From: Peptococcaceae bacterium
GTDB taxonomy: Bacteria; Bacillota; Peptococcia; DRI-13; PHAD01
DNA: 42,087 nucleotides
Assembly: GCA_024655825.1 (NCBI GenBank)
Contig: JANLFJ010000028.1
Location: forward strand, 1-42,087
Direction of reading: 5' to 3'
The stretch's first letter is position 1. Every line of letters starts with the position of its first letter. This document shows positions 223 to 42,087 of the stretch, in pieces. The notes under the pieces are model-generated. The model worked only from the letters and a program-made list of their open reading frames with translations. It made no database searches and was not told the DNA's origin. The position numbers and the translations under genes are program-made.

Positions 223-1752
223 TCAGACCACTACCCGGTCAAAGCTGCGGTACCGGACAGCTTCGGCCACGTGTTCGGCCGTTATTTCCTCGTTTCCTTC
301 CAGGTCAGCGATGGTACGGGCAATCTTAAGTATCCGGTCATGAGCCCGTGCACTCAAACCAAGACTCTGAAAAGCGCCCTGCAAAAGCTTTCTGGCTTCT
401 CCGCGAACAGCGCAGTACTTCCTAATATCTTTCGCTTTCATAAAAGCATTGCAGGTGATGCCGCTGCCGTCAAACCGTTCCAGCTGCCTTTGTCTGGCCC
501 TGACCACCCTTTCCCTGATCAGGACCGAGGATTCTTCGGGTCGATCACTGTTCAGTTCCTGGAAGGCCACGCGCGGTATTTCCAGGTGGATATCGATCCT
601 GTCCAGCAAAGGACCGGAGAGCTTGCTCCGGTACTTGTTAACCTGGTAAGGCGTGCAGGTGCACTCCTTGGTAGGGTCACCGAAATACCCGCAGTAACAG
701 GGATTGGCCGCCCCGACCAGCTGGAACCTGGCTGGATAGGTCATGGCCGACGTAACCCGGGAAATGGTTACAACCCGGTCTTCCATGGGCTGGCGCAGCG
801 ATTCCAGGACTTCCCGGCGGTATTCGGGAAGCTCGTCTAAAAAGAGAACTCCATGCGTGGAAAGAGTGATCTCTCCCGGCCTGGGAATCTGCCCCCCGCC
901 TATTAAACTGGCCAGTGAGGAGCTGTGATGTGGGGAACGAAAAGGCCGCGCCGTGACAAGAGGCATTTCTTTGGTGAGCAGCCCGGCTATGCTGTAAATT
1001 TTGCTCACCTCCAGAGCTTCTTCAATGGTAAGCGGCGGTAAAATCGAGGGCAGGCACCTGGCCAGCATGCTTTTGCCGGAACCCGGCGCCCCGATCAGCA
1101 AGATGTTATGACCGCCGGCAGCGGCCACTTCCAGGGCCCTTTTGGCCATATTCTGACCTTTTACCTCGCTGAAATCCGGACCGGCAGAAGGCAAATTCTG
1201 CAGGTAGTCTGACAAGCTTATTTTTTCCAGGGGCTTGTAACTGCCTTCGCCCTCCAAAAAGTCCTTCACTTCGGCAAGGGTTGCAAAAACATATGTATCC
1301 AAAGGCGTTAATGCGGCTTCCCCGCTGTTGTTCACCGGAATAACAAACGCTTTATTCGACTGTTCCGCCAAGTACAGGGCCATGGGCAGTATTCCCGCGA
1401 CAGGGCGCAGCCTGCCGCCCAAAGAAAGTTCTCCCACCAAGACATGCTTTTCAAGAGACACAGCCTTCAACTGCCGGGTCGCGGCGAGGATGCCCACGGC
1501 AATAGGCAAGTCAAAGCCCGGCCCCTCCTTTTTAATATCGGCTGGCGCAAGGTTGACGATGATCCTGCGCGGCGGGAATTCAAAACCGGAATTCTTTATA
1601 GCGGTCCTGACCCTTTCTTTGCTTTCTCTCACCGTGGTATCAGGCAAACCTACAATTTCCAGGCACGGAAGGCCTGCCGAAACATCCACTTCCACTTCGA
1701 TCAAATGCGGGTCCATTCCCACCGTAGTGCAACTGTACACCCTGGCCAGCAC
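223..1752 (-). CDS. comM: YifB/ComM family Mg-chelatase-like AAA+ ATPase
   Basis: This is a 509-residue YifB/ComM-type ATPase. In naturally competent bacteria ComM is a hexameric helicase that promotes branch migration during recombination of incoming DNA; in Bacillota the role is less established. The N-terminal third is the ChlI/Lon-like domain (VGLPDTTVRESKERV). The AAA+ core has Walker A GAPGSGKSML, Walker B VLFLDELPEY and an SPHHS motif, and the C-terminal third is the Mg_chelatase_C helical domain. I chose the GTG at 1752, eight bases after GGGAG, because the protein then begins LARVYS as in homologues. An ATG at 1782 in the same frame adds ten residues without a good ribosome binding site. 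It lies downstream of the amidase/yraN group, in the position next to dprA seen in many Bacillota, but dprA is not inside the window. Confidence 0.93.
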   Translation of the reverse strand: MLARVYSCTTVGMDPHLIEVEVDVSAGLPCLEIVGLPDTTVRESKERVRTAIKNSGFEFPPRRIIVNLAPADIKKEGPGFDLPIAVGILAATRQLKAVSLEKHVLVGELSLGGRLRPVAGILPMALYLAEQSNKAFVIPVNNSGEAALTPLDTYVFATLAEVKDFLEGEGSYKPLEKISLSDYLQNLPSAGPDFSEVKGQNMAKRALEVAAAGGHNILLIGAPGSGKSMLARCLPSILPPLTIEEALEVSKIYSIAGLLTKEMPLVTARPFRSPHHSSSLASLIGGGQIPRPGEITLSTHGVLFLDELPEYRREVLESLRQPMEDRVVTISRVTSAMTYPARFQLVGAANPCYCGYFGDPTKECTCTPYQVNKYRSKLSGPLLDRIDIHLEIPRVAFQELNSDRPEESSVLIRERVVRARQRQLERFDGSGITCNAFMKAKDIRKYCAVRGEARKLLQGAFQSLGLSARAHDRILKIARTIADLEGNEEITAEHVAEAVRYRSFDRVVV

Positions 1753-1782
1753 GCCCATCACTCCCGTGACATTATACAACAT

Positions 1783-1839
1783 ATTTTGCTATTACTACAT
1801 AATATTGCATATATCTACATGATATGCAATACATTTCCA
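1783..1839 (-). promoter_or_regulatory. palindrome-rich intergenic site, candidate operator/promoter of comM
   Basis: The gap between the amidase stop and the ComM-type gene is AT-rich and dominated by inverted repeats. TATTGCATAT at 1803-1812 is matched perfectly by ATATGCAATA at 1822-1831. Inside it lies ATATC/GATAT, and next to it TATTA/TAATA around 1791-1805. On the minus strand TTGCAT and TATTAT stand 19 bases apart, a weak -35/-10 pair overlapping the palindrome. This layout suits a dimeric repressor or activator controlling comM. There is no U-tract, so it is not a typical terminator. Binding is inferred. Confidence 0.4.
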
Positions 1840-3162
1840 CTAGGGCGTCTGTTTATCATATGCCAGCAGTTCTTCCAATTTTACAGCCCAGGCCAGCAGC
1901 ATTTCATCGGCCATAAACCGGGCGCTGAACTGCAACCCCAAAGGAAGTCCTTTTTTACCCCTGCCGGCCGGAAGGGTCACGGTCGGCAGGCCGGCATGGG
2001 TCCAGGGAAGATTCATAATTGGGTTGCCCGTCGACTCTATTCCTGCGGGAGCCTCGCCGGTAGACGGAGGCGACACCCAGAGGTCAAGCCCATTTTCATC
2101 CATTAAACCTTCCAGTTCTGTCCTCAGAAGCCCTCTTGACTTTTTCCCCTCTTCTACTTCTTCGGCGCTCACCTCTTTCCCTTCCCTGATTAAATCAGCC
2201 GTGCGCTCCCGGTACAGCCCTTCGTATTCCGCAAACAGTTTTTCATGCTCCCTGGCCATTTCGGCGGCCCCGAGCCGGTTATGGCGCCTGTTGATCTCTT
2301 CAATGTTTTCCAATGCCGGGATGCGTTTGACCGTGCAGCCGGCTTCCACCAGCCGGAGCAGGTATTCCTCGAAGGCGGCCAGCGTGCCGGCAGGGGCCTG
2401 TTTTAGGTATGGGCCTTCAGGCACTCCCAGCACCGGCAGCGTCATGTTAGCTGCCGCCCTGTCCTGTTCCCAATCCCGGCAAACGACTGCGGCCGCTAAC
2501 AACATACCGGCTGCATCACGTGTAAACAACCCCACATGGTCCAGGGAACGCGAGTAATAAAGCAGCCCCTCGGTCGAAATCCGGTCATAGCTTGGCTTGT
2601 AGCCGGTTATCCCGCAAAACGCCGCCGGCCTGATCACCGAGCCCACAGTCTGGGTGCCTACGGCCAGCGGGCAAAAACCGGCGGCCACAGCCGCGGCCGA
2701 ACCGCTGCTTGAACCGCCCGGTGTATGAGCGAGGTTGTGAGGGTTTCGCGTCGGCCCCGGGGCAAAATACGCAAATTCCGTGGTAACCGTTTTCCCCAGG
2801 ATAAGAGCTCCGGCCTCGCGCAGCCGGGTAACGCACCTGGCCTGCGCCCCGTCGAACAGGTGCGCGGGAAGCTTGGACCCCGCCCTGGTGGGGAATCCAT
2901 CAACCCTGAATATGTCTTTTATTCCAACCAGCACCCCGAATAACGGCGGCCGGTTCCCTGTAAGAGGGTATTTTTTCTCCAGTTCTGCGGCTTCCCAGAG
3001 CAGGCGTTCCCTCCTTCCCGTCTCAGGAACAAGCGCCTGTATCCGTGAATCCCTTTCGTCAATCCGGTCGCAAATGGAGTTTATATAGTCCTGCAAATCG
3101 ATCTTCCCGCTCCGCAGGGCTGTTGTTACCTCCAAAAGCGTTTCAGGGTAATCCTTCATCAT
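1840..3162 (-). CDS. amidase signature family hydrolase (GatA-like)
   Basis: This 440-residue amidase-signature enzyme hydrolyses a carboxamide bond through a Ser-cisSer-Lys triad. The triad is visible: Lys82 in GVLVGIKDIF, the cis-Ser in the glycine/serine loop PGGSSSGSAAA near residues 148-157, and the nucleophile Ser175 in QTVGSVIRPA. The protein is shorter than a housekeeping GatA (about 480-490 residues) and no gatB or gatC lies beside it, so a stand-alone amidase acting on small amides is more likely than Glu-tRNA amidotransferase. The substrate cannot be told from sequence. A GGAGGTGG ribosome binding site precedes two adjacent ATGs at 3162 and 3159; either could be the start. It follows the glycosidase-domain gene by 27 bases and is probably cotranscribed with it. 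Confidence 0.88.
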   Translation of the reverse strand: MMKDYPETLLEVTTALRSGKIDLQDYINSICDRIDERDSRIQALVPETGRRERLLWEAAELEKKYPLTGNRPPLFGVLVGIKDIFRVDGFPTRAGSKLPAHLFDGAQARCVTRLREAGALILGKTVTTEFAYFAPGPTRNPHNLAHTPGGSSSGSAAAVAAGFCPLAVGTQTVGSVIRPAAFCGITGYKPSYDRISTEGLLYYSRSLDHVGLFTRDAAGMLLAAAVVCRDWEQDRAAANMTLPVLGVPEGPYLKQAPAGTLAAFEEYLLRLVEAGCTVKRIPALENIEEINRRHNRLGAAEMAREHEKLFAEYEGLYRERTADLIREGKEVSAEEVEEGKKSRGLLRTELEGLMDENGLDLWVSPPSTGEAPAGIESTGNPIMNLPWTHAGLPTVTLPAGRGKKGLPLGLQFSARFMADEMLLAWAVKLEELLAYDKQTP

Positions 3163-3189
3163 TCCACCTCCATGTTTAATCACCCTACA

Positions 3190-4236
3190 TCAGGGCATAA
3201 TCACAATATTTGTCACCACCGGGCGCGGTTTTCCATCCGAAGGCCGGTTCAGTATTTTGCCGTCGTAAACAAAAGTGCTCGACCCGCCGCCGTCCAGGTT
3301 GTACCCCTCCTTAACGCCAAGCTCCACCAGCTTATCTAGTAGCCTTTCCAGGGTCACGCCGCTGCTCCAGTCTGACTGGCGCCCGTCCACGACAATAAAA
3401 ATGATGTCCCCGTTGGCGTATTCGCCGATAATCGTGCGCGGGTGTTTGGTTTCTTTCCATTCCTGGTCTACGGGACGGGCAAGCCCGCCCTTGATCAAAA
3501 CGGGAACAAAACTCACGCCCTGCCAGGGGTCAAGCGCCATTAACCCGTTTAATTCATAAAAAATCCCGCCGATGAATTTTCCCTGCCTGTTGATCCCGGC
3601 AAAAAAGAGGTTTTCGGGATAAGGATTAAAAGGGCCCAGCAGTTTCCCGTCAATCATGACGTTACCCATCGGCACCGCGTAAGGCTTCCCATCCCTCATT
3701 TCGGTATAAAAACCGCCACCGTTAATCCCCAGGATAGCTCCCGTGCGCTGCACCGCTTCGAGGGTCGTTTCCTTTTCGCCCGGGGTATCCTTGGCCAGCA
3801 CCACCTTGAACGCACTGGGATCGTATAGTTTAACCTTGGCGATATAGCCCCGGTATCCCATCTCATCCAGTTTAAAGACCTTTACTTCCACCCTGCTGGA
3901 TTTATATATTTTAACAGGGGGACCGAGCATGGCCAGGATGCGTTCTTCATAAATATTGTCCGACAGTTCCCTTTGAGTGGATACCTGCTCACTCAGCTGC
4001 CCAAGGGTGGACTGCTGTTCCCGGAAACGGGATTCCTGCTCCTGTGCCGTTTCGGCAATAAGCCCAATTTTCTCCAGCGCCGTTTCAAAACCGGCGGCGA
4101 TTGATTCCACCGCCTGGCCTGTCTTCTCAAGCGGGAGCAGCATATTGTTGGTATCAGATGCAAAACCGTATATTGAAAAAGCCAGGCCTAAAAACGGGGC
4201 AAGAACAAAGAGCATCAATACATTAACAAACCTCAT
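3190..4236 (-). CDS. membrane-anchored phosphodiester glycosidase (NAGPA/DUF2233 domain) protein
   Basis: This 348-residue protein has an N-terminal hydrophobic segment (about residues 4-26) that should anchor or export it. A glutamine/glutamate-rich probable coiled coil covers about 45-95, and a C-terminal NAGPA-type domain covers about 130-348. That fold, shared with human uncovering enzyme, hydrolyses phosphodiester-linked sugars. The family signatures ILGINGGGFYTE and YNLDGGGSSTFVYDG near the end are present, as is the terminal VVTNIVIMP. In bacteria such proteins are often called exopolysaccharide-related, but their substrates are mostly unknown. The ATG overlaps the stop of the upstream coiled-coil gene by one base (TGATG) and sits after AAGGAGG, so the two are translationally coupled. 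Confidence 0.85.
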   Translation of the reverse strand: MRFVNVLMLFVLAPFLGLAFSIYGFASDTNNMLLPLEKTGQAVESIAAGFETALEKIGLIAETAQEQESRFREQQSTLGQLSEQVSTQRELSDNIYEERILAMLGPPVKIYKSSRVEVKVFKLDEMGYRGYIAKVKLYDPSAFKVVLAKDTPGEKETTLEAVQRTGAILGINGGGFYTEMRDGKPYAVPMGNVMIDGKLLGPFNPYPENLFFAGINRQGKFIGGIFYELNGLMALDPWQGVSFVPVLIKGGLARPVDQEWKETKHPRTIIGEYANGDIIFIVVDGRQSDWSSGVTLERLLDKLVELGVKEGYNLDGGGSSTFVYDGKILNRPSDGKPRPVVTNIVIMP

Positions 4237-4631
4237 CAGGGGGCCTCCTTTAGGATTTTGAGGCTTTTCTCCAGTTCCTGCATCTGCAAATCAAGCTGTT
4301 CTATCCTGGCGTTCAGTTCCTGCTGCAGGCTTCCGGTGCTGGAAATAGTCTGGTCCGCACTGCTCAGCAGCCTTTTCAATTCGTTCATTTCGGAAGAAAG
4401 AGCGCTCAACCGCTCGTTCAATAACTGGACATGCATGGCATTGGTCTGCTGGACCTTTTGCACAACCTGGTCCACATATCTTTTGGCAGCATAATAGCCG
4501 CCGCCCACCAAGCCGCACCAGATGACCACCGCCAAAAAAACAGCCAGCACACTGCCAGCCTTGTTCTTTTTACGGTTTACCACCCGGCTGGATTCGGGCT
4601 GGAAACTGATATTTTCTCTCCGCTCATTCAC
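4236..4631 (-). CDS. single-pass membrane protein with C-terminal coiled coil
   Basis: This is a 131-residue protein with a basic, polar N-terminus, one membrane segment at about residues 25-48 (AGSVLAVFLAVVIWCGLVGG) and a heptad-like charged region from about 55 to the end, probably a coiled coil outside the cell. It starts at a GTG seven bases after GAGGGG. Its stop overlaps the start of the glycosidase-domain gene, whose product also carries an anchor followed by a coiled coil. The simplest inference is that the two proteins interact at the membrane. I recognise no named family. Confidence 0.75.
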   Translation of the reverse strand: MNERRENISFQPESSRVVNRKKNKAGSVLAVFLAVVIWCGLVGGGYYAAKRYVDQVVQKVQQTNAMHVQLLNERLSALSSEMNELKRLLSSADQTISSTGSLQQELNARIEQLDLQMQELEKSLKILKEAP

Positions 4632-4718
4632 TTTCGTTCACCCCTCTTTTTTTTGTTCGCCCGCAATTGTTTTCCATTATTTCAAATTACCTAGCCTACG
4701 CTTTCAATCTATATTTAT

Positions 4719-5075
4719 TTAAAAAGCGTCCCGGAGCAGTTCAATCTCCTTCATTTCGCCCTTCTCGTCAAAAAGTACCCAAACACAATCGAACCTGCAA
4801 GGCCGTTCCCAATCGTTTTTTCTCTGCAAGTAAGCACTGGCCAGTTTTCTCAGCCTTTGCCGCTTAGTCCAATTCACTGTTTCCTGCGGAAGTCCGAACG
4901 CAGTATTACCCCTGCTCCTCACCTCGATAAAAACCAGGTACGCTCCGTCCTCGGCAACAATATCTATTTCTCCCTGGGGGAAGCGGCAGTTTCTTTCCAC
5001 TATCCTGAAGCCTTGCTGTAAAAGGTGTTTTATGGCCAAATCCTCCGCCTTGCGTCCCATTTCCACCTTATCCAC
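4719..5075 (-). CDS. yraN: UPF0102 / YraN family endonuclease-like protein
   Basis: This 118-residue protein is of the usual length for YraN (UPF0102), a restriction-endonuclease-fold family of unsettled function. The core motif is intact: GEIDIVAED followed by LVFIEVRSR, matching the D-x(n)-ExK-type nuclease centre, here with Arg or Ser in the third position region. The start is the GTG at 5075, preceded by GAGG with seven bases of spacing; an internal ATG at 5060 has a ribosome binding site that is too close. In many Bacillota yraN follows rnhB and precedes comM. Here the complex I operon lies between rnhB and yraN. Confidence 0.9.
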   Translation of the reverse strand: MDKVEMGRKAEDLAIKHLLQQGFRIVERNCRFPQGEIDIVAEDGAYLVFIEVRSRGNTAFGLPQETVNWTKRQRLRKLASAYLQRKNDWERPCRFDCVWVLFDEKGEMKEIELLRDAF

Positions 5076-5177
5076 CGTGTTTCCTCACCGGCCTCGTTCT
5101 TGTTTTCTTCTATCATACCACGGCTGCCCAACGCAATGAAGAACACTCATTATTTCCCACAAATTCCCGACCTATGA

Positions 5178-5205
5178 ACAAAAATCGCCGTCAGCCGGCG
5201 ATTTT
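5178..5205 (-). terminator. Rho-independent terminator of the nuo operon
   Basis: A perfect 10-bp stem (AAAATCGCCG at 5181-5190 with CGGCGATTTT at 5196-5205, five-base loop) lies just past the nuoN stop. On the minus strand it ends in a TTTTTG tract, as expected for an intrinsic terminator closing the complex I operon. Confidence 0.85.
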
Positions 5206-5224
5206 CATAATTAATTTTAATTAT

Positions 5225-6652
5225 TTAAGGCAGGAATGTTTTGGCCACAGTTACAGCCACATCAGTCAGCGGGTCCGGGTAGACCCCGATAAAAATCGTT
5301 ATGAGCACAGCCGCAACCATCACTATTCTTGCCGCTAAAGGCACCGGTATCGGCTGGTCTTCCTTGGGATCAAAATAATACATGACCTTGGCCACCATCA
5401 GGTAATAATAAACCGAGACCATGCTCATCCCCAGCGCCACAATGACCAGCCAGAGGTACCCCTGCTCCATGGCCGCAGTAAATAGGTAGAATTTGCCATA
5501 AAAACCAGCCAGGGGCGGGATGCCGGCTAGGGAAAGAAGGCAAATCAGCATCGTAGCCGCCATCAGGGGCGAGCGTTTCCACAGGCCCGCATAGTCCTCT
5601 ATCTCGTCGCTCTCCAGCGCTTCACCCATCACGGTAATCACCGCAAATGCGCCCAGGTTGCAGAAAACGTAGAGCATCGCATAGAAAATGGCCGATTCAA
5701 GGCCCGCCCGGGTATAGGCGACCAGTCCCAGCAAAATGTAGCCGGCTTGGGCAATCCCTGAATAGGCCATCAGCCTCTTGATGTTGGTCTGGGGAATAGC
5801 CACGTAATTGCCGAGCAGGATGCTCAGGGCAGCAATCACCACGACAACCGGCATCCAGACCTGCGTATCCGTAAAAACGCGCATAAATAGGCGCAGCAGT
5901 ACGGCAAATCCTGCTCCCTTGGAGGCAACGGAAAGAAAGGCGGTGATCGTGGTCGGGGCCCCGTCGTACACATCGGGAGTCCACATGTGGAAAGGAACAG
6001 CCGATACTTTAAAAGCAAAACCGGCCAGGATGAAAACCAGTCCCATCAACATGAGCGGTTCAAGGACGTGCTTTGTTTTGACATACAGAGCAATATCCGT
6101 AAACAGCGTTGAGCCGGATAATCCGAAAACCAGGGTCAACCCGTAAAGAAGCAGCGCCGACGAAAGCGCGCTAAGCAAAATATATTTGACCGCGGCCTCC
6201 GGGGCCTTGCGCAAAAATGTGCCAAACCCTACCAGGGCAATAAACGAAATCGTCATCAGTTCCAGGGAAGTATAAAGGGTGATCAGGTCACCGGCGGAAA
6301 CGAGAAGCATCATTCCCAGGACGGCGAAGAGCAAAACGGAATTATATTCGCTTGTGCTGTCAGGCATGAATTTTCCGGTGTATCCCGGGGAAATCAGGCT
6401 GACCATAATGGCTGAAATAACAACCAATATTTTAAAATACGTGGCAAACCCGTCCACAACATACATGCCGTCCAGCAGGGAATCATTTACTCCCAGCATA
6501 CCAACGAGGACAGCCAGGACCGCCGCAAGGCCAAGGACTGACGCATAATTCAGGGCGATCCTGCGCTCACGCGGGACCAAAATCGATAACACCAGCACAC
6601 CGAAAGCCAGGGCAGTGGTCAACAGTTCGGGATAAACCAGGCGAAACTCCAT
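5225..6652 (-). CDS. nuoN: complex I subunit N, antiporter-like membrane subunit
   Basis: This 475-residue membrane protein is one of three Mrp-antiporter-like ion-pumping subunits of complex I. About 13-14 hydrophobic segments fill the chain. The conserved glutamate appears in LYTSLELMTIS and the conserved lysine/histidine channel region in AGFAFKVSAVPFHMWTPDVYDGAPT. It ends the operon and is followed by a strong terminator. Its start overlaps the nuoM stop by one base and follows GGGGGTGG. Length and motifs are typical. Confidence 0.96.
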   Translation of the reverse strand: MEFRLVYPELLTTALAFGVLVLSILVPRERRIALNYASVLGLAAVLAVLVGMLGVNDSLLDGMYVVDGFATYFKILVVISAIMVSLISPGYTGKFMPDSTSEYNSVLLFAVLGMMLLVSAGDLITLYTSLELMTISFIALVGFGTFLRKAPEAAVKYILLSALSSALLLYGLTLVFGLSGSTLFTDIALYVKTKHVLEPLMLMGLVFILAGFAFKVSAVPFHMWTPDVYDGAPTTITAFLSVASKGAGFAVLLRLFMRVFTDTQVWMPVVVVIAALSILLGNYVAIPQTNIKRLMAYSGIAQAGYILLGLVAYTRAGLESAIFYAMLYVFCNLGAFAVITVMGEALESDEIEDYAGLWKRSPLMAATMLICLLSLAGIPPLAGFYGKFYLFTAAMEQGYLWLVIVALGMSMVSVYYYLMVAKVMYYFDPKEDQPIPVPLAARIVMVAAVLITIFIGVYPDPLTDVAVTVAKTFLP

Positions 6653-8139
6653 CAGAAACCACCCCCTATGCTTATTTGACCCAGATAAGTTCGCACGAAA
6701 GGATCAACTCCGTTATTAATGACATCCACCAGCAGCGAGGGGAAAAACCCGAAGAAAATGAGGACTCCGCACAGGACAACAATGGGAACCATCTGGGCGC
6801 CCTGGGCGTCGGTCATCTTTTCCCACTTAGGATTGGGCGGCCCGAAGAAAACCTTTTGAACAACCCTCAGCACATACACCGCAGTGATGACAATCCCGGA
6901 AATGGCCAGGATGGACGAGACCTGGTACACCCTGAAGCTTCCCACAAAAATCAAGAACTCGGCCACGAAGTTGTTCAGTCCCGGCAGCCCCAAAGAGGCG
7001 AGCCCCGCGATGACAAATCCTGTCGCCACTCGCGGCATCTGCGCGGCCAGGCCTCCAAATTCCGCGATCACCCTGGTGTGTGCCTTATCGTAAATGATTC
7101 CTACCAGGGCAAAGAAAAGCGCCGTCATAATGCCGTGAGCGAACATCTGGGCCACGGCCCCGTTGATGCTGATGGTGTTAAGGGCGGCAATCCCCAGCAG
7201 GACATAGCCCATATGGCTAACGCTGGAATAGCCGACCACGAATTTCAGGTCTTTCTGGTGCATGGCCACCATGGCCCCGTACACCACATTAACGATGCAC
7301 AGCGTGGCTATAAGCGGCGACCAGAATACCGCTCCTTCGGGGAACATAAAAATCCCCGCTCTTACCAGGCCGTAAGCTCCCAGCTTCATAAGGACACCGG
7401 CATGAAGCATGCTTACCGCTGTCGGCGCCGCCACGTGTCCATCAGGCGACCAGGTGTGCAGCGGCCACATGGGGACCAGGAAACCGAAACCGATCATCAT
7501 GAAAAAGAACGCAAATTTCTGGAACGAAGGATCGTAAGCAACAGCAGTCAAAGCCTGAATATCGAAAGTTCCCAACCCGCTTTCGAGATAAACGGCGATA
7601 ACGCCGATCAGGGCAAAAGCGCTCCCCACCAAAAGATAAAGCGTCAGCTTCATTGCCGCGTATTCCTTGCGGGTGCTGCCCCAGACACCTATCAGCAAGT
7701 ACATGGGAATGACGGCCAATTCGTAAAAGAGGTAGAAGAAAAAGAGATCGCGGGAACAAAACACGCCAAAAACACCGGTCACCAGGGTCAAAAGCCAGAT
7801 GAAAAATTCTTTGACCCTTAATTCCATGCCCCAGGAAGCAAAAACACCAGTGAAAATCACAATGGCCGTCAACAGGACCAGGGGAAGGCTGATGCCGTCA
7901 ACCCCCAAGGAATAACTGATGCCGAACCGGTCAATCCAGGGTATATCTTCTACAAACTGCAGCCCGCCCTTTACCTTGTCGTAGGTCGCGTACCCGTATA
8001 CGGAAAGGGCCAGGGATACTCCCGTGCAGGCGGCGGCTACCTTCTTGATTGTCCCCGCTTTTTCAGCGGGAATTAACAAAATGGTCAGCACCCCAAGCAG
8101 GGGAGACAGGATAATAAGGGAAAGTACTGGCAGGCTCAT
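6652..8139 (-). CDS. nuoM: complex I subunit M, antiporter-like membrane subunit
   Basis: This 495-residue subunit is of normal length for NuoM and carries about 14 predicted membrane segments. The key glutamate is in LFFFYLFYELAVIPMYLLIG and the conserved channel stretch is MWPLHTWSPDGHVAAPTA. The GGAGGTG ribosome binding site lies inside the end of nuoL, and the ATG overlaps the nuoL stop by four bases, so translation is coupled. It works with NuoL and NuoN in moving protons or sodium ions; the ion used is not evident from sequence. Confidence 0.96.
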   Translation of the reverse strand: MSLPVLSLIILSPLLGVLTILLIPAEKAGTIKKVAAACTGVSLALSVYGYATYDKVKGGLQFVEDIPWIDRFGISYSLGVDGISLPLVLLTAIVIFTGVFASWGMELRVKEFFIWLLTLVTGVFGVFCSRDLFFFYLFYELAVIPMYLLIGVWGSTRKEYAAMKLTLYLLVGSAFALIGVIAVYLESGLGTFDIQALTAVAYDPSFQKFAFFFMMIGFGFLVPMWPLHTWSPDGHVAAPTAVSMLHAGVLMKLGAYGLVRAGIFMFPEGAVFWSPLIATLCIVNVVYGAMVAMHQKDLKFVVGYSSVSHMGYVLLGIAALNTISINGAVAQMFAHGIMTALFFALVGIIYDKAHTRVIAEFGGLAAQMPRVATGFVIAGLASLGLPGLNNFVAEFLIFVGSFRVYQVSSILAISGIVITAVYVLRVVQKVFFGPPNPKWEKMTDAQGAQMVPIVVLCGVLIFFGFFPSLLVDVINNGVDPFVRTYLGQISIGGGF

Positions 8140-10019
8140 CTCACACCTCCTATTACAGGCACTGCTGTGAAAAGCACAATCAAAACGACTGCGGCAAATA
8201 TTACCAAGGCATAAACCTGCAAATTACCGGTCTGGAGATAACGAAGCATCCTTCCCAGACCCCGCGTCCCGTCGGCAACAGCGTGGGCCGTGCCATCCAC
8301 CAGGTTGCGGTCGCTCCAGTTGAAGGCCGCAGCAATCCGCAGCACGACATTGTCAAAAAACCAGAGATAAAGCTCGTCAATGTAATACTTATTATCTAAA
8401 ACCCTGTAAATGCGTGGAAAAGCACGGGCAATGCTTTCCGCAGGGATAACTTTCCGGATATAGATTAACCACGCCATTGCTATACCTCCGATACCCAGGA
8501 GGATGGATGACCACATAACAGGCCAGTTGACCTCCGGGTGATGCGCTTCCCCGAAATATACGAACGAACTGAAACCGTGTTCAATAAAAGGGGCCCCCAG
8601 CAGGCCGCTCGTAACGGCGAAGAAGGCCAGCACAATTAGAGGAATGGTCATTACCGGCGGCGACTCGTGGGGGTGGTGCTCACCCCTCTTTTCACCGAAG
8701 AAGGCCAGGAAAATCATGCGGAACATGTAAAAAGCGGTCATAAACGCGGTGAGGGCGGCCATGATATAGAGAATATTATAACCGAAGATACTCGGTCCGT
8801 TTGCGTAGGCAGCCGACAATATCTCATCCTTGCTCCAAAAACCCGCAAAAGGCGGTATGCCGGCTATAGCCAACCCTCCGATGATCATCGTGACAGTTGT
8901 TATTCTCATGTCCCCGCTCAGACCGCCCATTTTCATAATGTCCTGTTCATGCAGAGCGTGGATAACACTGCCGGCGCAGAGAAACATGAGGGCCTTGAAA
9001 AAGGCGTGAGTCGTCAGGTGGAACATCCCTGCCGTCATGCTGCCCACACCCATAGCCAGAACCATGTATCCCAGCTGGCTCAACGTGGAATAAGCCAGGA
9101 TTCGTTTCATGTCTCGCTGGACCAGGGCAATGGAGGCGGCAAACAGGGCAGTGAACCCGCCGGTCACGGCGACAACCAGCAGGGTTGCGGCTGATGACGC
9201 AAAAAGGATGTAACCGCGGGCCAGCAGGTAAACACCGGCCGCCACCATGGTGGCGGCATGGATCAGGGCGCTGACGGGCGTAGGCCCTTCCATGGCGTCA
9301 GGAAGCCAGACATGTAAAGGAAACTGGCCCGACTTGCCCACTGGTCCAAGGAACACCAGGATTCCGGCCAAAGTCAAAAACCCCGTCTCGGCACAACCCC
9401 GTATGCCGACTGCCAGTTCCCCGAAATTAAAGGTGCCGAAATAGCTGAACAGGACCAAAATACCCAGCAGGAAACCGAAATCAGCTACCCGGTTGGTGAT
9501 GAACGCCTTTTTGTTGGCGTCGGCGGCCGAATTCTTCTGGTACCAGAAACCGATCAGTAGATACGATGACAGGCCCACCAGTTCCCAAAAGACATACATT
9601 TGCAAGTAGTTGTTGGAGATAACCAGCCCCAGCATGGAAAAGGTAAAAAATACCAGGTAGGAAAAGTAACGTGAAAACCCTGGGTCTTCGTGCATATAAC
9701 CCACCGAGTATATAAAAATCAGGAGCGAAATAAAAGTTACCACCAGCAGCATTACCACTGTCAGGGGGTCAATCAAAGCTCCCATCTCAATAAAAATTCC
9801 AGGCAGGTTTAACCATTGAACTCCTAGTTCCACGGGCTTTTCCATGGTTATACCCCCGCCCAGCACCTCACGCGCAATGCCGGCGGAAACCGCAAACGAC
9901 CCGCCAATGGCCGCTATTGCCGAAAGGGCACTCACAGCTCGATACTTTTTAACCACAAAGTTAATGAAGACAAACGCAGCCAGCGGTAAAAACGGTACAA
10001 GCCAGACTTTCTCAATCAT
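8136..10019 (-). CDS. nuoL: complex I subunit L, antiporter-like subunit with lateral helix
   Basis: This 627-residue subunit has the NuoL hallmarks: FWELVGLSSYLLIGFWY with the conserved glutamate, the channel segment GPVGKSGQFPLHVWLPDAMEGPTPVSALIHAATMV (only part is needed to recognise it), and a long C-terminal extension that forms the lateral helix along the other antiporter subunits. I took the ATG at 10019; a TTG two codons earlier (10025) is possible with the same GGCGGGTG upstream. The length agrees with NuoL proteins of about 610-660 residues. Confidence 0.96.
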   Translation of the reverse strand: MIEKVWLVPFLPLAAFVFINFVVKKYRAVSALSAIAAIGGSFAVSAGIAREVLGGGITMEKPVELGVQWLNLPGIFIEMGALIDPLTVVMLLVVTFISLLIFIYSVGYMHEDPGFSRYFSYLVFFTFSMLGLVISNNYLQMYVFWELVGLSSYLLIGFWYQKNSAADANKKAFITNRVADFGFLLGILVLFSYFGTFNFGELAVGIRGCAETGFLTLAGILVFLGPVGKSGQFPLHVWLPDAMEGPTPVSALIHAATMVAAGVYLLARGYILFASSAATLLVVAVTGGFTALFAASIALVQRDMKRILAYSTLSQLGYMVLAMGVGSMTAGMFHLTTHAFFKALMFLCAGSVIHALHEQDIMKMGGLSGDMRITTVTMIIGGLAIAGIPPFAGFWSKDEILSAAYANGPSIFGYNILYIMAALTAFMTAFYMFRMIFLAFFGEKRGEHHPHESPPVMTIPLIVLAFFAVTSGLLGAPFIEHGFSSFVYFGEAHHPEVNWPVMWSSILLGIGGIAMAWLIYIRKVIPAESIARAFPRIYRVLDNKYYIDELYLWFFDNVVLRIAAAFNWSDRNLVDGTAHAVADGTRGLGRMLRYLQTGNLQVYALVIFAAVVLIVLFTAVPVIGGVR

Positions 10020-33248: not shown

Positions 33249-34325
33249 TTAAAAATCAGGAGTTAGTACAATCCTTTGCCTCAATCCCCCTTTGTGCGCT
33301 TCTTCGTATGCTTCTTTTATCCGGCTCATCGGCATGGTTTTAATAAACGGCTCTATCTGGATTTTGCCGCTGAGCACCATGTTTAAAACATCAGGGTAGT
33401 ACTTAGGCAGGCAGGCCCAAGTGCCTATTATCTCAGCCTCCAGGGCCATCACCCTGGATAAAGAGAACTCATTTTTGTGCATTCCGAAACCAGCTATCAC
33501 TAATTTGCCGATAAAGGGCAGCAGTTCTAAAGCGATTTCCTGCCCCGCCGCGGTGCCTGTCCACTCAAAAATCTTCCACCCGTAATGGGAAGGCAATCCC
33601 TTACTCCTGCAGTAGGCATAGAACTCATCGCGTACATTCTTAGCTGTCTTGTTCTGGCTGCTAATAACATGAGTTGCGCCGAACTTAAGCGCCCTCTGAA
33701 GTTTTTCCTGATTGCGGGCGATGCCAATAATCTCTTGGGCACCCATTGCCGCACAGATCTGAGTAGCATAAACGCCAGCCCCTCCCGTGGCGCCGACGAC
33801 GATTACCAGGTCTCCCAACTTCACATCTGCCCTTTTAGCCGCTTGATAGGCAGAAGCAACGGCATCAGCAACTACCGCGAGATGAGAAAGCGCTATTCCC
33901 TTCCTTTCTTTAATGTAACATAAGTCTTCCGAAGGTACGGCGATATGACTGGAGTTGCCACCATAAATACCCATGCTGTAGCCTGGTATTTTTGCCGCTA
34001 GGCATCGGTTCCCCCTCCCAGCTTTACAGATGGAACAGTTGTTGCACGGCATCGTGGGGGGAATGATAACCTCTTTACCCACGAGTTTGGCATCGCCGGC
34101 GACAATAGTACCGCTAATCTCATGCCCTAATGTTCGCGGTGTCACCGTAACAGTCGGCACTTTACCATAGAACACATTATGATCCAAACTGCAAATACCG
34201 CAACCTGCTATTTCCACCAGTACCTCGCCCGGTTTAAGCTTAGGCACGTCAATAGTGGCTTTCTCCATTTTACCAAGAGAGACCATCTGCCAAGTCTCGA
34301 TTTTGCTTGGTACCTTTGTCATCAT
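33249..34325 (-). CDS. zinc-dependent alcohol dehydrogenase, Had-like (6-hydroxycyclohex-1-ene-1-carbonyl-CoA dehydrogenase type)
   Basis: This 358-residue medium-chain dehydrogenase has catalytic-zinc ligands in GCGICSLDHN and GHEIS, a structural-zinc loop MPCNNCSICKAGRGNRC, and the NAD-binding GATGGAGVYATQ. The segments GYSMGIYGGNSSHI, VVADAVASAYQAAKRA, LPSHYGWKIFE and EIIGTWACLPKYYPDVLNMVLSGKI strongly recall Had, the NAD-dependent dehydrogenase of anaerobic benzoyl-CoA degradation. None of its usual partners (dch, oah, bam/bcr) lies nearby, so the physiological substrate is open. The start at ATGATG (34325/34322) follows AGGGGA. Confidence 0.78.
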   Translation of the reverse strand: MMTKVPSKIETWQMVSLGKMEKATIDVPKLKPGEVLVEIAGCGICSLDHNVFYGKVPTVTVTPRTLGHEISGTIVAGDAKLVGKEVIIPPTMPCNNCSICKAGRGNRCLAAKIPGYSMGIYGGNSSHIAVPSEDLCYIKERKGIALSHLAVVADAVASAYQAAKRADVKLGDLVIVVGATGGAGVYATQICAAMGAQEIIGIARNQEKLQRALKFGATHVISSQNKTAKNVRDEFYAYCRSKGLPSHYGWKIFEWTGTAAGQEIALELLPFIGKLVIAGFGMHKNEFSLSRVMALEAEIIGTWACLPKYYPDVLNMVLSGKIQIEPFIKTMPMSRIKEAYEEAHKGGLRQRIVLTPDF

Positions 34326-34518
34326 ACTTTCCCCTAAAAGCAAGATGCAGATAACATCATCTTATCCGCCCGAAATTCTCTCCCTTCGAAGCTGCGCAAT
34401 ACCGCTTTAACATGAATATGACACTTTTGTATGTGTTTTAGGATATCTTGAAAATCCTATAAGTTGGGCTTTAGAAACCTTTATTGTCTTTCCTAATACC
34501 AAAAAACCATGAAATTAA

Positions 34519-35117: not shown

Positions 35118-35642
35118 ATGAATAGTACATCAAATACTGCCACAATGACCATAGAAGAACTTCAAAAGCGCTGTGTTGTGAACGGTCAAAACGCTAAACT
35201 GACCGCCAAGCTGAACTGGTTTATGGAGCAGTTTCGCTTAAGTAAACACCGGCAATTCGGCGTTTCCAGCGAACGGACCGCTCCTGAACAACAGCAGCTT
35301 TTTCTTTTTAATGAGACGGAAGTGGAAGCCCAACCGGTTCCAGCTGAGCCGACCGTGGAAACGATCACCTACCAGCGCCGCAAACAACGCGGCCACCGTG
35401 AGACGGTGCTCGAAAACCTGCCGGTTGAAACGGTTGAGTACCGTCTGCCTGTCGAAGAGCAGGTCTGTTCATGTTACGGCGGTCCTTTGCATGAAACGAG
35501 CACCGAGGTACGGCAAGAACTTCAGATCATTAGCTATCTCTTCGAAAAACTTCCCAACCTGGATACCAAAGACGAGAATGCTTTTGATAAGCTGCTCCCA
35601 TGGTCCGAGTCCTTGCCCCTTGTCTGCCGGGGCAGCAAATAA
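35118..35642 (+). pseudogene. internally deleted IS66 transposase (TnpC) remnant
   Basis: This 174-residue frame joins the N-terminal part of an IS66-family TnpC (a leucine-zipper-like region, then RLSKHRQFGVSSER, the QRRKQRGHRE stretch and the zinc-finger region CSCYGGPLHE, in which one Cys of the usual pair is Tyr) directly to the extreme C-terminus (SYLFEKLPNLD, LLPWSESLPLVC). The junction is near residue 139 (about nt 35530). The whole DDE catalytic core, some 330 residues in the family, is missing, so it cannot transpose by itself. No TnpA or TnpB is present. Confidence 0.85.
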
Positions 35643-36017: not shown

Positions 36018-36088
36018 TTTTCCAATTTATTCCTGCCAGTTTATTACACTTTCCTTTATTCTCAATAGAAATAAGGAAGGTGTTTTTT

Positions 36089-36940
36089 ATGCAAGATTAT
36101 CTTCAATTGATGATGACCTCCATGGAGCTAAGGGGCTTTGCCAAAAGCACTCAAAAAAACTATCTGGCACACATCCGCCGTTTTACGCAATTTTGCGGCA
36201 AACACCCTGCAGCAGCCGGCTATGACGATGTCAGGGCTTTTCTTCATCATGCTATTTGCAAAAGAAAACTGAGCTCAGCTTACGTTAATTCTGCCTATGG
36301 AGCTATTAAATTCTTTTTTCAGTCGGCTCTATGCCGGAAATGGAATATGCTTCATGTCCCCAGAGTGAAAAAGAGGTCTTTTCTTCCGGTAATTTTATCT
36401 CCCCAGGAAGTTTTTCAGATTATTAATTCTACTAATAATCTCAAACACAAAGCTATTCTTTCTACGATTTATTCAGCTGGGCTTCGGGTCAGTGAAGCTG
36501 CCCATTTGAAAGTTTCCGATATTGATAGTTCCCAGATGCGTATCTTTATTCGTCAATCTAAAGGAAATAAGGACCGTTATTCGATTCTGTCAGAGAAGAA
36601 TCTTTCTCTTCTTCGTGAATACTGGAAACTGTATCGTCCTAAATCCTGGCTCTTTCCAGGTGTTCCTGATTCTAAGCCAATTTCTGCCCGGACAATCCAA
36701 TCCGTTTTTCATAATGCCCTTGTCACTGCCGGGATTTTTAAGGATGTTTCTGTTCATACTCTACGCCATTGTTTTGCTACACACCTTTTAAATAATGGTC
36801 CCAGCATCCTGCAAATTAAGAATCTGCTGGGTCATTCCGATATTCAAACTACTTCTATATACCTGCATCTTACTCACGCTCAGGTTCTTGGCCTAAAAAG
36901 TCCCCTGGATTTTGCCATTAGGGGTGACTTTGATGCTTGA
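36089..36940 (+). CDS. tyrosine recombinase (phage-integrase family), IS91-associated
   Basis: This 283-residue recombinase has the N-terminal SAM-like DNA-binding domain (SMELRGFAKSTQKNYLAHI) and a catalytic domain with a complete active site: Arg133 (SAGLRVSEAA), Lys158 (RQSKGNKDR), His223 and Arg226 (HTLRHCFATHL), His249 (LLGHSDIQTT) and Tyr258 (SIYLHL). I chose the ATG at 36089, eight bases after AAGGAAGG. It overlaps the HUH transposase by eight bases, an arrangement known in one branch of IS91-like elements. It is the only gene of the island that seems intact. Confidence 0.9.
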   Translation: MQDYLQLMMTSMELRGFAKSTQKNYLAHIRRFTQFCGKHPAAAGYDDVRAFLHHAICKRKLSSAYVNSAYGAIKFFFQSALCRKWNMLHVPRVKKRSFLPVILSPQEVFQIINSTNNLKHKAILSTIYSAGLRVSEAAHLKVSDIDSSQMRIFIRQSKGNKDRYSILSEKNLSLLREYWKLYRPKSWLFPGVPDSKPISARTIQSVFHNALVTAGIFKDVSVHTLRHCFATHLLNNGPSILQIKNLLGHSDIQTTSIYLHLTHAQVLGLKSPLDFAIRGDFDA

Positions 36941-37664
36941 GTTGCAAGATGTTTTTTCCCGCTTCGGTGTTCGTTTTATTGATTCTCATTTTATTCATTA
37001 TGAAGGCTTGAATGCTATAAATGCGATTAGAAATTGTAGGACTTCTTCTCTGGGAGGTCATGTGGATGTTTGTGATTCCTGCGGATGTTCCAAGGTCTCA
37101 TATAATTCTTGCCGGAACAGGAATTGTCCTAAATGCGGTAATTTGAATAAGGAGCAGTGGATTTTGGATCGAAAGTCTGAGCTTTTGCCAGTCCGGTATT
37201 TCCATGTTGTTTTCACTGTACCTCATAAACTTAATGGTTTGTTTCTCTCTAACCAGGATTTGATGTACTCTCTTCTTTTTAAGGCGGCATCAGAAACTCT
37301 CTCCAAACTTGCTCTGGATAAAAAGTTTTTGGGAGCTCAGATCGGCGTGACGATGGTACTTCATACATGGGGACAAAACCTTTCTTTCCATCCCCATGTC
37401 CACTGTATTGTTCCTGGGGGTGGTCTTTCTCCTTCCGGCTTATCTTTTGTGCGTTCGAGAAAAAAGTTCTTTATTCCTGTAAAGGTTTTGTCCAAGGTGT
37501 TCCGGGGCAAGTTCCTTTTCTACTTGAAAAAGGCTTTTGTGAAAATCAAATTAAGGTTCTCTGGAGAATCGCTTCAATATGCCGAAAAATCTAGTTTTCA
37601 GTCTTTGCTCGATTCTCTATATGATACTTCCTGGGTAGTCTACTGCAAGAAGCCTTTTAAGTAG
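36933..37664 (+). pseudogene. IS91-family HUH transposase, truncated before the catalytic tyrosines
   Basis: 243 residues are present. A zinc-binding region (VCDSCGCSKVSYNSCRNRNC with PKCG) is followed by the HUH motif HPHVH at residues 153-157. The frame stops at TAG (37662-37664) right after VVYCKKPFK. In the same frame beyond the stop comes SHRVVEYLSRYLYP, which is the place of the catalytic tyrosine motif, then another stop. After a frame change HKIAIYNNRLVSMDDWYEV follows to about 37760. Thus the C-terminus has decayed and the enzyme should be inactive unless suppressed. The start at ATG 36933 follows AGGGGTGA; 36912 is an alternative. Confidence 0.87.
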
Positions 37665-37884: not shown

Positions 37885-39133
37885 TTAAACAGCTAAACCT
37901 TTTTCTTTGACTTCGTAACCAAGAGCCTGAAGCCTCTTAATCATGCTGCGAGCTTTGTTTTTGTTCCTTGCTTCTTTATAAAAATCCGGACCATGTTCCT
38001 GGTAAAGGCTCTTTGTCTTGAGCATATGGTAAATTGTTGTTACAATTTTTCTTGCAGTTGCAACAGCAGCTTTTTGAGGCCCACGTCTTACTTTGATTGA
38101 CCAGTACCTCGCAGAAATGTAAGTGTTTTTTGTGTTTGAAGCTGCATGAGCACACTGGCAAAGAAGGGTTTTTACGTAGTTGTTTCCGGCTTTAACGCGC
38201 GTGGATTTTCTTTTGCCGGCGCTCTCGTTATTACCCGGATTTAGCCCACACCATGAAGCAATATGATCCTCAGAATGAAACACTTCCATGTCAGGGCCTA
38301 TTTCCGCAAGAATCGCCTGAGCAGCCGTTTTGTCAATGCCGGGATGAGAGTCGATGATATCAATAAGTTCCTTGTAAGGCTCACATTTTTCATCGATCAT
38401 GCTTTCCAGCTTGGCAATTTGTGAATTAAGAAAGTCCAGATGCCCTAAAATTTCCTTGATGAGATCTTTTTGATGGTTGTTCAGCTGGCCATTTAAAGAT
38501 TCAAGCAACTGAGGGATTTTTTGGCGAAGCTTGCGTTTCGCAAGATTGGCAATTGATTCGACATCGTTGCTTTTCTCCTCATCATCGGATATTAATGCAG
38601 CAATCATTGCCATTCCAGAAACGCCGAAAACGTCTGAAACAACGCTTGAAAGCATGATATTGCTTGTACGAAGGACATCAAGGAGACGGCTTCTTTCCGA
38701 TGAACGCATTTGAATCAGTTTTTGTCTGCGTCTTGTTAAATCTCTAAGTTCCCTGATGTATTTTGGAGGGACAAAGCTGCCTTCTACAAGGCCCAGTGCA
38801 AGAAGCTTTGCCAGCCATCTAGCATCGTTGGTATCTGTTTTGCGCCCAGGAAGATTCTTTACGTGACGAGCATTAGCCAGAACAATTTCCATTGAATCCT
38901 CAAGGATATTGTGTACAGGTATCCAGTTCTTGCCGGTGCTCTCCATGGCTACTTTGGTATAGTCTTCTTCCAAAAGCCATGCTTTTAATTTTTCAAGGTC
39001 CGAGGTCATAGTTGTAAATGTTTTGATTGTGTCTTCATACCTTTGTGAATCTTTGGGCCTTAAGGAGACATGCTTTTACAGAATCCTTATGGACATCAAG
39101 ACCACAAACAACTGGGTTAATAACTTTTAGCAA
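37885..39133 (-). pseudogene. IS110-family transposase with a frameshifted N-terminus
   Basis: The main frame (37885-39009, 374 residues) contains most of an IS110 DEDD transposase: VAMESTGKNWIP, GRKTDTNDARWLAKLL, and the C-terminal transposase_20 region (HPGIDKTAAQAILAEIGPD, ASWCGLNPGNNESAGKRKS). It lacks the first catalytic Asp. That residue is found upstream in another frame from TTG 39133: LLKVINPVVCGLDVHKDSV, ending near KACLL. The main frame's own continuation (RPKDSQRYEDTIKTFTT) joins it only if one base is removed near 39059-39068. The gene is thus probably inactive as read, or is expressed through frameshifting. Confidence 0.85.
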
Positions 39134-39593: not shown

Positions 39594-41846
39594 TCAATTT
39601 TTTCTTTGAATTGTAAACTCATCAGCAACTGTAAAATCACCGTTGTTTTTGTCTGTTTTTATATAAGAAATACAAATTAATTCAGATTCAATCGATATAT
39701 TTAAAAATCCAGCAGATGGTAATGTATCGTCCGGATTGTAACCATATTCCACTGCTTTTTTTGTTGCTATACGACTTATTCCAGGTTGGGGAACTAAAAT
39801 ATAATGAATTCCGTCCCTTTGCTCGTTGGCATAAAAATGATCATGTCCATGAAAAACAGCAGTAACATGATTTTGAACAAGCAACTCATGAATTGGCATA
39901 GTAAAATCCACTCTGTTTTTATTAAAGGTATATGAACCGTTGAGATCCCTTCCTCCCCATTCAAAATATTTTGAAGCCTGCGCCCCACCTCTGTGTTCTA
40001 CATCGATTCCACCAAGCAAATGGTGGACAAAGACAAACTTTGTATCACACTTACTGTTTTTTAATATGCTTTCCAGCCACTGATACTGTTCTAAACCCAA
40101 TGTATCAGACCATCCTGCTGAAGAATCTGTTGTAAAAGTAAAGGCGTCCAATACCACAAAAAGAACATTTTCATATTCAAATGCGTAGTAGTTGGCATTT
40201 TTTGTGTCACCTGAAAATGATGAGTTGATACTTGGCATTGGAAAATATTCGTTCCGTATACTTCTCGATAGTCTTTGCTGTTTAGGCCGGAAACCGTTCT
40301 CGCCATCATGATTCCCTGTTACAAAATATATCGGAATATTCTTCAGAGGAGACAATTTTTCTGAAACAAACAGAGCCCTTTCACGCATTTCTTCCAGCGT
40401 TTCTCCATAATCTCCAAACATTAGTGTATCTCCTAAATCCATAATGAATGCCGGAGAAGACTTAACAATATTGTGAAAGGTTTGATAGAGAATATCGAAA
40501 TCTGTTTCTTCGTCCATGTGGGTATCTGCCATAACGACGAAGGAAAACGGAGAAACTTCATCAGTATTACCACTTTGGGCTTGAGATTTCTCAGCTTTTG
40601 TATTTAACGAAGACAAATCTACAGTTCGTACACAACGCACATAGTTATAAACCATACGGATATCACCCTGCGGTCCCCATGCCTGAGGATAGTCCATCTT
40701 GTTGCCGGATTTTGGATCACTGCGTTGTGCTCCCGCACCATGTACATCCATGAGCTTATTATTCATTATCCCTTGTGCATAACCAAAAGCTATATAAGCA
40801 GCAGAAGAATACGGATTTTTCCCATCCAGGTGAGTAGTGCTTGTCCAGAAATAAGGATATTGTTTATTGCCCTTAATATCCTTAATCGGGGTAACATTAA
40901 ATAATGGATCAATAGCAGCCGAACCAGTTGTTCCAGGTGAACGCGTATAATCTACAATACTATGCAGTTCTTTAGCATTAGGCAATCGCCAATCTTTATA
41001 TCCAGCCAGTTCAAGATTTTCAGCATAAGCAAGTGCTTCCTGCCAATTTAAACCAACCCCACTATCATTCTTCTGCCACATAAGTCCCGTAGCAAGGTCA
41101 GTAATCGTACCATCTCCGTTATCAATAAAATTATTCTTACCATATTCCGGATTTCCTCTTACAAGTCTTACATACATAGCATTTGGTCTTTTGGTACCTG
41201 GCTTATATTTTGGATAAGCTTTGATTCTTCCATCCACAAAATTTACTCCAAATATTGCTTCTTGCCCATTCATTACTTTTCCAACATAAACGGTCGAAGA
41301 CCATGTCTGGGCGTCAATTTCTCTTTCTCCCTTGGTAACATCTCCAAGCGGTTGATTGAAGTAGCGGGTATCAATAAACAACCTTTCTCCTGCCTTTTCT
41401 CCGCCAGATGTTCCTGTAAAGAGAATAAGTGAATACAGTTCTTTTATAGACGGCACCCGCCAATCATTATATCCTGCAAATGTGCAAGTTTCAGCATAAG
41501 CCATTGCTTCTTCCCATGTCATCTTCTCGCCCATGTCCTTCATCCACATTAACCCGGTAACATTGTCTGTTACAGTACCATCCCCATTATCAGTGTAACT
41601 AGGTTCATTTCCGCTATAATTAGAATCTTGTCCATAAAATGGATCGCCTTCTTTAGGTTTAGGGATAACATCTGTATCACTGTAGCTTTCCTTAACACCA
41701 GTATCAACAATCGGATAAGTCAATGTTACCGAAGAATCATCTTGAGAGCTATTATTAATGTTCAAATCTGCACTGTTTGAATTGGTACTGCACCCAAACT
41801 GAATCATAATCAATGTTATCAACAATATTACTATTACTTTCTTCAA
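39594..41846 (-). CDS. lipoprotein with two Lcl/DUF1566 domains fused to a calcineurin-like metallophosphoesterase
   Basis: This is a 750-residue exported protein. Residues 1-18 form a signal peptide ending IQFGC, so Cys19 is a probable lipid-attachment site. Two Lcl C-terminal (DUF1566) domains follow at about 83-232 and 239-409, each with DNGDGTxTDxxTGLMW, W(E/Q)EAxAYAE, and DWRxPxxKEL. A metallophosphoesterase domain spans about 435-745, with DTH (441-443), LGDT (471-474), GNHD (511-514), HH (608-609) and HGHDH (666-670): all metal ligands are present. The start is TTG at 41846, seven bases after GAGGGTG. It stands alone beside the mobile-element island, with AT-rich codons unlike the core genes. 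Substrate unknown; the Lcl domains may bind surface ligands. Confidence 0.85.
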   Translation of the reverse strand: MKKVIVILLITLIMIQFGCSTNSNSADLNINNSSQDDSSVTLTYPIVDTGVKESYSDTDVIPKPKEGDPFYGQDSNYSGNEPSYTDNGDGTVTDNVTGLMWMKDMGEKMTWEEAMAYAETCTFAGYNDWRVPSIKELYSLILFTGTSGGEKAGERLFIDTRYFNQPLGDVTKGEREIDAQTWSSTVYVGKVMNGQEAIFGVNFVDGRIKAYPKYKPGTKRPNAMYVRLVRGNPEYGKNNFIDNGDGTITDLATGLMWQKNDSGVGLNWQEALAYAENLELAGYKDWRLPNAKELHSIVDYTRSPGTTGSAAIDPLFNVTPIKDIKGNKQYPYFWTSTTHLDGKNPYSSAAYIAFGYAQGIMNNKLMDVHGAGAQRSDPKSGNKMDYPQAWGPQGDIRMVYNYVRCVRTVDLSSLNTKAEKSQAQSGNTDEVSPFSFVVMADTHMDEETDFDILYQTFHNIVKSSPAFIMDLGDTLMFGDYGETLEEMRERALFVSEKLSPLKNIPIYFVTGNHDGENGFRPKQQRLSRSIRNEYFPMPSINSSFSGDTKNANYYAFEYENVLFVVLDAFTFTTDSSAGWSDTLGLEQYQWLESILKNSKCDTKFVFVHHLLGGIDVEHRGGAQASKYFEWGGRDLNGSYTFNKNRVDFTMPIHELLVQNHVTAVFHGHDHFYANEQRDGIHYILVPQPGISRIATKKAVEYGYNPDDTLPSAGFLNISIESELICISYIKTDKNNGDFTVADEFTIQRKN

Positions 41847-42087
41847 GTTATATCACCCTCACTTATTTATTCATATTAAAAAGCATCTCTATAAGATATT
41901 TTTAACATACAGTCACTTTATCAACCTACAAAACTAAATAGATGGTTCTCTCTGTGTTTTTATTTGTTCCAATAAATACTTGCCATTATACCCTTGACAT
42001 CCACAAAATCAGCAAGATGTTTATATAATATTACAGGAGTTATGCAGTTGATGGAAAATAACACCAAAGCATAATCAAAAAATATTT
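41847..42087. other. AT-rich upstream region at the window edge
   Basis: This is the presumed promoter region of the lipoprotein gene. On the minus strand GGTATAATGG gives a -10-like TATAAT, with TTGCTG 19 bases before it as a weak -35. On the plus strand TTGACA occurs with TATAAT 24 bases on, which is too far. Near the edge AGGAGTT precedes ATG and a nine-codon frame that closes with TAA; it may be chance. Nothing further can be supported. Confidence 0.3.

Follow-up and report, generated by a model that had tools for sequence, protein, structure and literature searches.

An intact open reading frame at positions 39594-41846 (minus strand) of the window, i.e., the whole 42,087-nucleotide stretch of Peptococcaceae DNA analyzed here, joins two DUF1566/Lcl domains to a calcineurin-like metallophosphoesterase (MPE), and we consider it moderately likely that its product is an exported, probably tethered binuclear phosphoesterase docked by the lectin-like Lcl pair onto its substrate polymer. 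In this model, the protein would be exported and probably held at the outward side of the membrane by an N-terminal lipid or signal anchor; the tandem C-type-lectin-like Lcl domains would attach it to a polymer, of which the likeliest kind is an anionic glycan bearing sulfate or phosphate groups; and the C-terminal binuclear MPE, with GpdQ/Rv0805-like DxH ligands in a purple-acid-phosphatase/PhoD-like fold, would hydrolyze phosphoesters on or near that polymer. The gene would then represent, in a single reading frame, a modular set joined by fusion or neighborhood, in which the partners of the Lcl pair are phosphoesterases, formylglycine-type sulfatases, arylsulfotransferase (ASST)-like propellers, FGE-like domains and metallo-beta-lactamase (MBL) hydrolases. 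The preliminary description of this DNA had the protein bind through its Lcl pair and hydrolyze a phosphoester there, a reading that fits the evidence given below, from which we infer surface location, ligand class, substrate and activity.

Gene and domain organization

The gene, recognized from the open-reading-frame list, Pfam and sequence, encodes 750 aa without an internal stop and starts with TTG, directly 5' of which lies the purine-rich, ribosome-binding-like GAGGGTG. A promoter and terminator scan gave no excess over shuffled sequences. Pfam Lcl_C (PF07603) matched the protein twice, with 159 bits against a curated cut-off of 34.9 and a whole-protein E of 6e-47. The first Lcl_C domain spans residues 90-230 (41157-41579, minus strand; E 1.6e-23) and the second residues ~246-359 (40770-41111, minus strand; E 6.9e-23), its module extending to about residue 410. 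A linker delimited by sequence and alignment (residues ~411-430; 40557-40616, minus strand) leads to the MPE domain (39597-40556, minus strand), which was identified by Pfam, ligand alignment and a structure model and matched Metallophos (PF00149) at residues 435-671 with E 3e-15 and 57.5 bits, against a curated cut-off of 21.5. None of the NCBIfam models matched the protein at its own cut-off. The protein is the sole Lcl protein of the 3.16-Mb host genome.

The N-terminus carries a signal peptide with an imperfect lipobox (residues ~1-20; 41787-41846, minus strand). The protein had been described as a lipoprotein, a weaker point of that description: in the stretch I15-Q16-F17-G18-C19 the Cys and the Gly at −1 fit a lipobox, while the Gln at −3 makes it non-canonical. 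A close relative, the protein of locus L087, has the canonical LLISGC. Judged from the N-terminal sequence, the protein is probably located at the surface through a lipid or signal anchor.

Phosphoesterase domain

The seven metal ligands D441, H443, D473, N512, H608, H668 and H670 are kept in 99-100% of 123 aligned sequences; their pattern, DxH/GD/GNHD/H/GHDH, is what we take to be the binuclear ligand set of GpdQ and Rv0805. Together with the Pfam matches, this conservation bears out the earlier claim of two DUF1566/Lcl domains joined to a phosphoesterase with complete metal ligands. When the MPE domain was modeled alone with AlphaFold2, the fold formed confidently (pTM 0.87), with PhoD as the best structural match (Z 22.9 over 286 residues, rmsd 3.3), followed by purple acid phosphatases (Z 21.5) and GpdQ (Z 20.7). 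The first full-length model was weak over residues 335-540 (pTM 0.50), probably because partial sequences were mixed into the alignment. Although the fold (Z 20-23) and the full binuclear ligand set are common to the window MPE and these solved structures, identity to them is only ~14-23%, and the window MPE and its relatives carry an extra, family-specific insert between the fifth and sixth motifs, with RGG, E and GG residues (RGG..., E.GG) invariant across the MPE relatives. Assignment as a standard purple acid phosphatase was rejected, since the window protein has DTH and GDTLM in place of DxG and the Tyr motif GDxxY.

A tree of 134 rows contained two old paralogue groups of MPE, and placed the window domain near Clostridial, Chlorohelix-plasmid, Planctomycetal and sulfatase-adjacent Verrucomicrobial copies; its branch is very long (1.89 changes per site), so this position is unsure. 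In the 123-sequence alignment, the window MPE also departs from its family at many near-invariant positions other than the ligands, and the two features together suggest that its substrate may have changed. The MPE of locus L044 has a Pur_ac_phosph_N match, and the linker of the window protein occupies the position of the PAP-N/FN3-like N-terminal domain of at least some free-standing relatives.

Lcl pair

The model of the first Lcl domain is C-type-lectin-like, resembling botrocetin (Z 9.1 over 106 residues) and InvE (Z 8.6 over 95 residues); in the mixed alignment the second domain was poorly modeled, and the fold prediction for the Lcl half therefore holds for the first domain. Window Lcl domains share PF07603 and, for the first domain, this fold with Legionella Lcl, whose solved C-terminal domain (Lcl-CTD) binds sulfated glycosaminoglycans through surface lysines that are little conserved across other Legionella species (PMC11162425). 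In contrast to Legionella Lcl, which has a single domain, the window protein has a tandem pair, no collagen-like stalk and an attached enzyme. The L. pneumophila protein has a strongly cationic, sulfate-binding face, whereas such a face is not evident in the window domains, which are slightly acidic (20 and 17 K+R versus 23 and 19 D+E in the two halves). With this slight net negative charge, the ligand class named above is a guess guided by the partner enzymes.

In a quick tree, the window Lcl pair grouped (support 95-100) with the MBL-Lcl-Lcl protein of L087 and with pairs from a Polaribacter MAG, a Persicobacter plasmid and a genome of the Verrucomicrobiota sample. Its branch is short (0.27), identity to relatives reaches 68-71%, and the cross-phylum spread of the closest pairs suggests transfer. 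DUF1566 is a target class of diversity-generating retroelements, and the Lcl domains could thus form a variable receptor-binding head to which the enzyme is secondary. Papers on these retroelements do name DUF1566 (PMC4159848, PMC6642488); however, the reverse-transcriptase matches of the host all lie on contigs other than that of the window, and relatives share a well-conserved Lcl pair, not a hypervariable one, so that we regard such a role as highly improbable.

A second alternative, which we consider somewhat unlikely, is that the Lcl pair is a structural, adhesion or oligomerization module, anchoring the protein in the cell's own matrix or forming multimers, and does not guide the enzyme to its substrate, while the MPE scavenges phosphate from soluble phosphoesters. 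Legionella Lcl-CTD is a trimer, and the paper describing it suggests that DUF1566 might instead serve to form trimers (PMC11162425); the MPE fold resembles that of the phosphate-scavenging PhoD and purple acid phosphatases, and free-standing MPE relatives had no Lcl gene in the fetched flanks at 48 of 76 loci. Against this, the fusion partners of the Lcl pair, described in the next section, include several different enzymes that act on phosphate or sulfate esters, which suggests a shared substrate class over a generic anchor.

Fusions of the same modules in other genomes

The preliminary description had called the domain fusion unusual. It is rare, and no function was found assigned to it in the libraries or papers searched; it is not unique, as it recurs in locus L104 and inside the giant proteins of L102 and L103. 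The L104 protein (5115-8213, 1033 aa, Verrucomicrobial) has the architecture PKD-Lcl-Lcl-Metallophos, with the same Lcl-Lcl-MPE order as the window protein and 40% identity to it over 589 aa. It differs in its additional PKD region, in an MPE of a subfamily that lacks the insert and in an Lcl pair from another branch of the tree, and on these grounds the two fusions probably arose independently. The Verrucomicrobial loci L102 (1066-11703, minus strand, 3546 aa) and L103 (2353-13575, plus strand, 3741 aa) encode ASST-MPE-MPE-Lcl-Lcl-FGE-ASST in a single chain, as assigned with HMMs built in this work and, for the first, with Pfam. The giant reading frame of L102 also has an SMP-30/gluconolactonase-like region. 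Adjoining the L104 fusion is a protein with EF-hand, beta-helix and MBL-fold regions (1638-5075), and EF-hands recur in loci L005, L006 and L137.

Among the closest Lcl pairs (68% identity) is that of L087 (1504-3729), from another genome of the phylum, which belongs to a lipoprotein and, as in the window protein, has a hydrolase partner; here the catalytic domain has a metallo-beta-lactamase fold and is N-terminal, whereas the window protein has a C-terminal MPE. The 79 distinct tandem-Lcl proteins included 15 Lcl-Lcl-FGE and four ASST-Lcl-Lcl proteins, along with one each of ASST-Lcl-Lcl-FGE-ASST, MBL-Lcl-Lcl and sulfatase-Lcl-Lcl; Pfam was run on examples of these architectures. Within the stretches fetched for the first 80 loci, no reading frame held both Lcl and MPE modules, but at many of these loci the two were encoded by neighboring genes. 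At L148, a 1218-aa protein (4154-7807) combining YHYH, two Lcl domains and an ASPM-SPD-2-Hydin-like domain adjoins a 1542-aa sulfatase-MPE protein. Fusions of the Lcl pair to different phosphate- and sulfate-ester enzymes point to a shared substrate class, and since the same modules are fused elsewhere and are frequent neighbors, the window fusion is one outcome of a recurring partnership.

Each of the domains is already known; no account of their recurring combination turned up in the libraries and open-access papers searched. In those papers, we found neither DUF1566 combined with a metallophosphoesterase or an arylsulfotransferase nor the gene cluster described below, and DUF1566 together with sulfatase occurred only in papers on retroelements, reverse transcriptases and ice-binding proteins.

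Gene clusters and neighborhoods

Lcl-pair and MPE genes are neighbors in clusters of Bacteroidota, Ignavibacteriota, Verrucomicrobiota and Lentisphaerota, and tandem-Lcl and ester-enzyme genes are neighbors in 40-70% of the sampled loci. Genes were called by a simple longest-ORF rule, and the first scan was queried with peptides from both halves of the protein. According to our HMMs, the cluster set consists of Lcl-Lcl (or Lcl-Lcl-FGE), one or two MPEs, and FGE-like, ASST-like and sulfatase genes; L044, for example, encodes an ECF sigma factor, an LTXXQ-like protein, Lcl-Lcl, two MPEs, FGE and ASST, and further examples are L074, L078 and L006. At L074, L044, L006, L102 and L103, an Lcl pair of the window's kind and MPEs of its family occur adjacent or in one polypeptide, but these systems are multi-gene or multi-domain, whereas the window host keeps only the two-module version. 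Many Verrucomicrobial loci have sulfatase and MPE reading frames that are contiguous or overlapping. In Clostridia and on the Chlorohelix plasmid, the MPEs are preceded by a response regulator, a histidine kinase and a long LTXXQ-like protein with the CPERHGTYFGGF motif.

At least one partner family was present within ~6 kb in 51 of the 76 MPE-anchored loci (Lcl in 28, ASST in 33, FGE in 27 and sulfatase in 20). When Verrucomicrobiota loci were picked by Lcl similarity, an ester enzyme (sulfatase, ASST or MPE) flanked the Lcl pair or was fused to it in 17 of 40, whereas one of 20 control windows, drawn from genomes of that sample, contained such an enzyme (Fisher p = 0.002), a comparison to be read in light of the few controls, the commonness of sulfatases in Verrucomicrobiota and the phylogenetic non-independence of the loci. 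Sulfatase alone accounted for 13 of the 40 loci versus one of 20 controls, the difference for MPE alone (3/40 versus 0/20) was not significant, and the remaining 23 Lcl-pair genes had no ester enzyme nearby. The Cys of the formylglycine motif is kept in 33 of 35 sulfatase domains. In 20 cluster genomes, tandem-Lcl proteins were few, with many of the strongest matches on the contig of the cluster. A role of the FGE-like neighbors as sulfatase activators was rejected, because the usual catalytic stretch lacked cysteines in the six C-terminal blocks examined; presumably, an active, formylglycine-generating FGE has cysteines in this stretch. The ASST of L006 had no match among PDB sequences at E 0.001.

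We tentatively propose, with the fusions and clusters taken together, that these genes could form an undescribed extracellular system of several phyla, in which the Lcl pair would present an anionic polymer to any of a set of ester enzymes that can stand in for one another (PAP-like phosphoesterases, formylglycine sulfatases and ASST-like propellers) and that are in many cases encoded next to LTXXQ/Spy-like proteins and a two-component or ECF regulator; a single polypeptide of ~3,500 residues would be its extreme and the window gene its minimal mobile form. Next to nothing is known of what DUF1566/Lcl, a large family, does in organisms other than Legionella; its recurrent physical link to enzymes of phosphate and sulfate esters suggests a role that can be tested, i.e., guiding enzymes to ester-bearing polymers. 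The cluster is conserved in lake, sediment and marine bacteria of Bacteroidota, Ignavibacteriota, Verrucomicrobiota, Planctomycetota, Chloroflexota and Bacillota, and may matter for the recycling of phosphorus and sulfur from organic matter.

Adjoining MPEs we also observed a conserved extracytoplasmic family of 420-600 aa with the CPERHGTYFGGFYMKD motif, weak LTXXQ (Spy/CpxP) matches and no informative Pfam name, whose genes frequently follow those of a histidine kinase and response regulator (L073 4202-5641, L011 3799-5592, L007 4294-5724, L009 3695-5275 and L101 7385-8986). In the host's own family, at L086 (G001:C126, 351-1506), a short single-Lcl reading frame lies directly behind a histidine kinase/response regulator pair that resembles those upstream of Clostridial MPE genes, with the kinase split into two reading frames.

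Genomic context and acquisition

The gene had been placed beside a transposon island and thought to be possibly acquired, and both suggestions were supported. It is flanked by an IS110 transposase (37885-39009, minus strand), beyond which lie a truncated IS91-type transposase (36912-37664, plus strand), a Xer-type recombinase (36080-36940, plus strand) and an IS66-like reading frame (35118-35642). We regard the IS110, IS91-type and Xer elements as mobile surroundings with no part in the protein's function. Core genes in the window near it include glgA, glgB, glgC, glgD, glycogen phosphorylase and ffh, a set consistent with a host from the Bacillota. Its GC3 is 0.293, compared with 0.49-0.70 in 26 core genes, and its codon distance is 0.312, compared with a maximum of 0.222 in the same genes. 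The Lcl and MPE halves are equally deviant, so they probably arrived already joined or share a long history. Only four of 398 genomes of the phylum, the host included, strongly match either half. This clearly foreign codon use suggests that horizontal transfer brought the gene into its host. As for the vehicle, phage and plasmid origins were set aside: one scan of viral contigs gave no relative, and related Lcl-pair proteins on Persicobacter, Vibrio and Photobacterium replicons do not cover the fusion.

The host genome contains no ASST, FGE-like or LTXXQ-like partner genes, and the contig ends at position 42087, 241 bp upstream of the gene; without ASST and FGE-like partners, the protein would act alone or be a passenger. 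That it is decaying or passenger cargo of the island with no present role in the host is in our view unlikely: the foreign codon use, the nearby IS110, the truncated IS91 and IS66-like remnants, the lack of partners, the very long MPE branch and the strong matches in only three phylum genomes besides the host would all agree with it, but the 750-codon reading frame is unbroken, every metal ligand is in place, and the Lcl pair retains its short branch and high identity to relatives. A functional docked phosphoesterase remains the reading that we prefer.

Just ahead of the island, the reading frame at 33249-34343 of the window matches 6-hydroxycyclohex-1-ene-1-carbonyl-CoA dehydrogenase, an enzyme of the anaerobic benzoyl-CoA pathway, above the cut-off.
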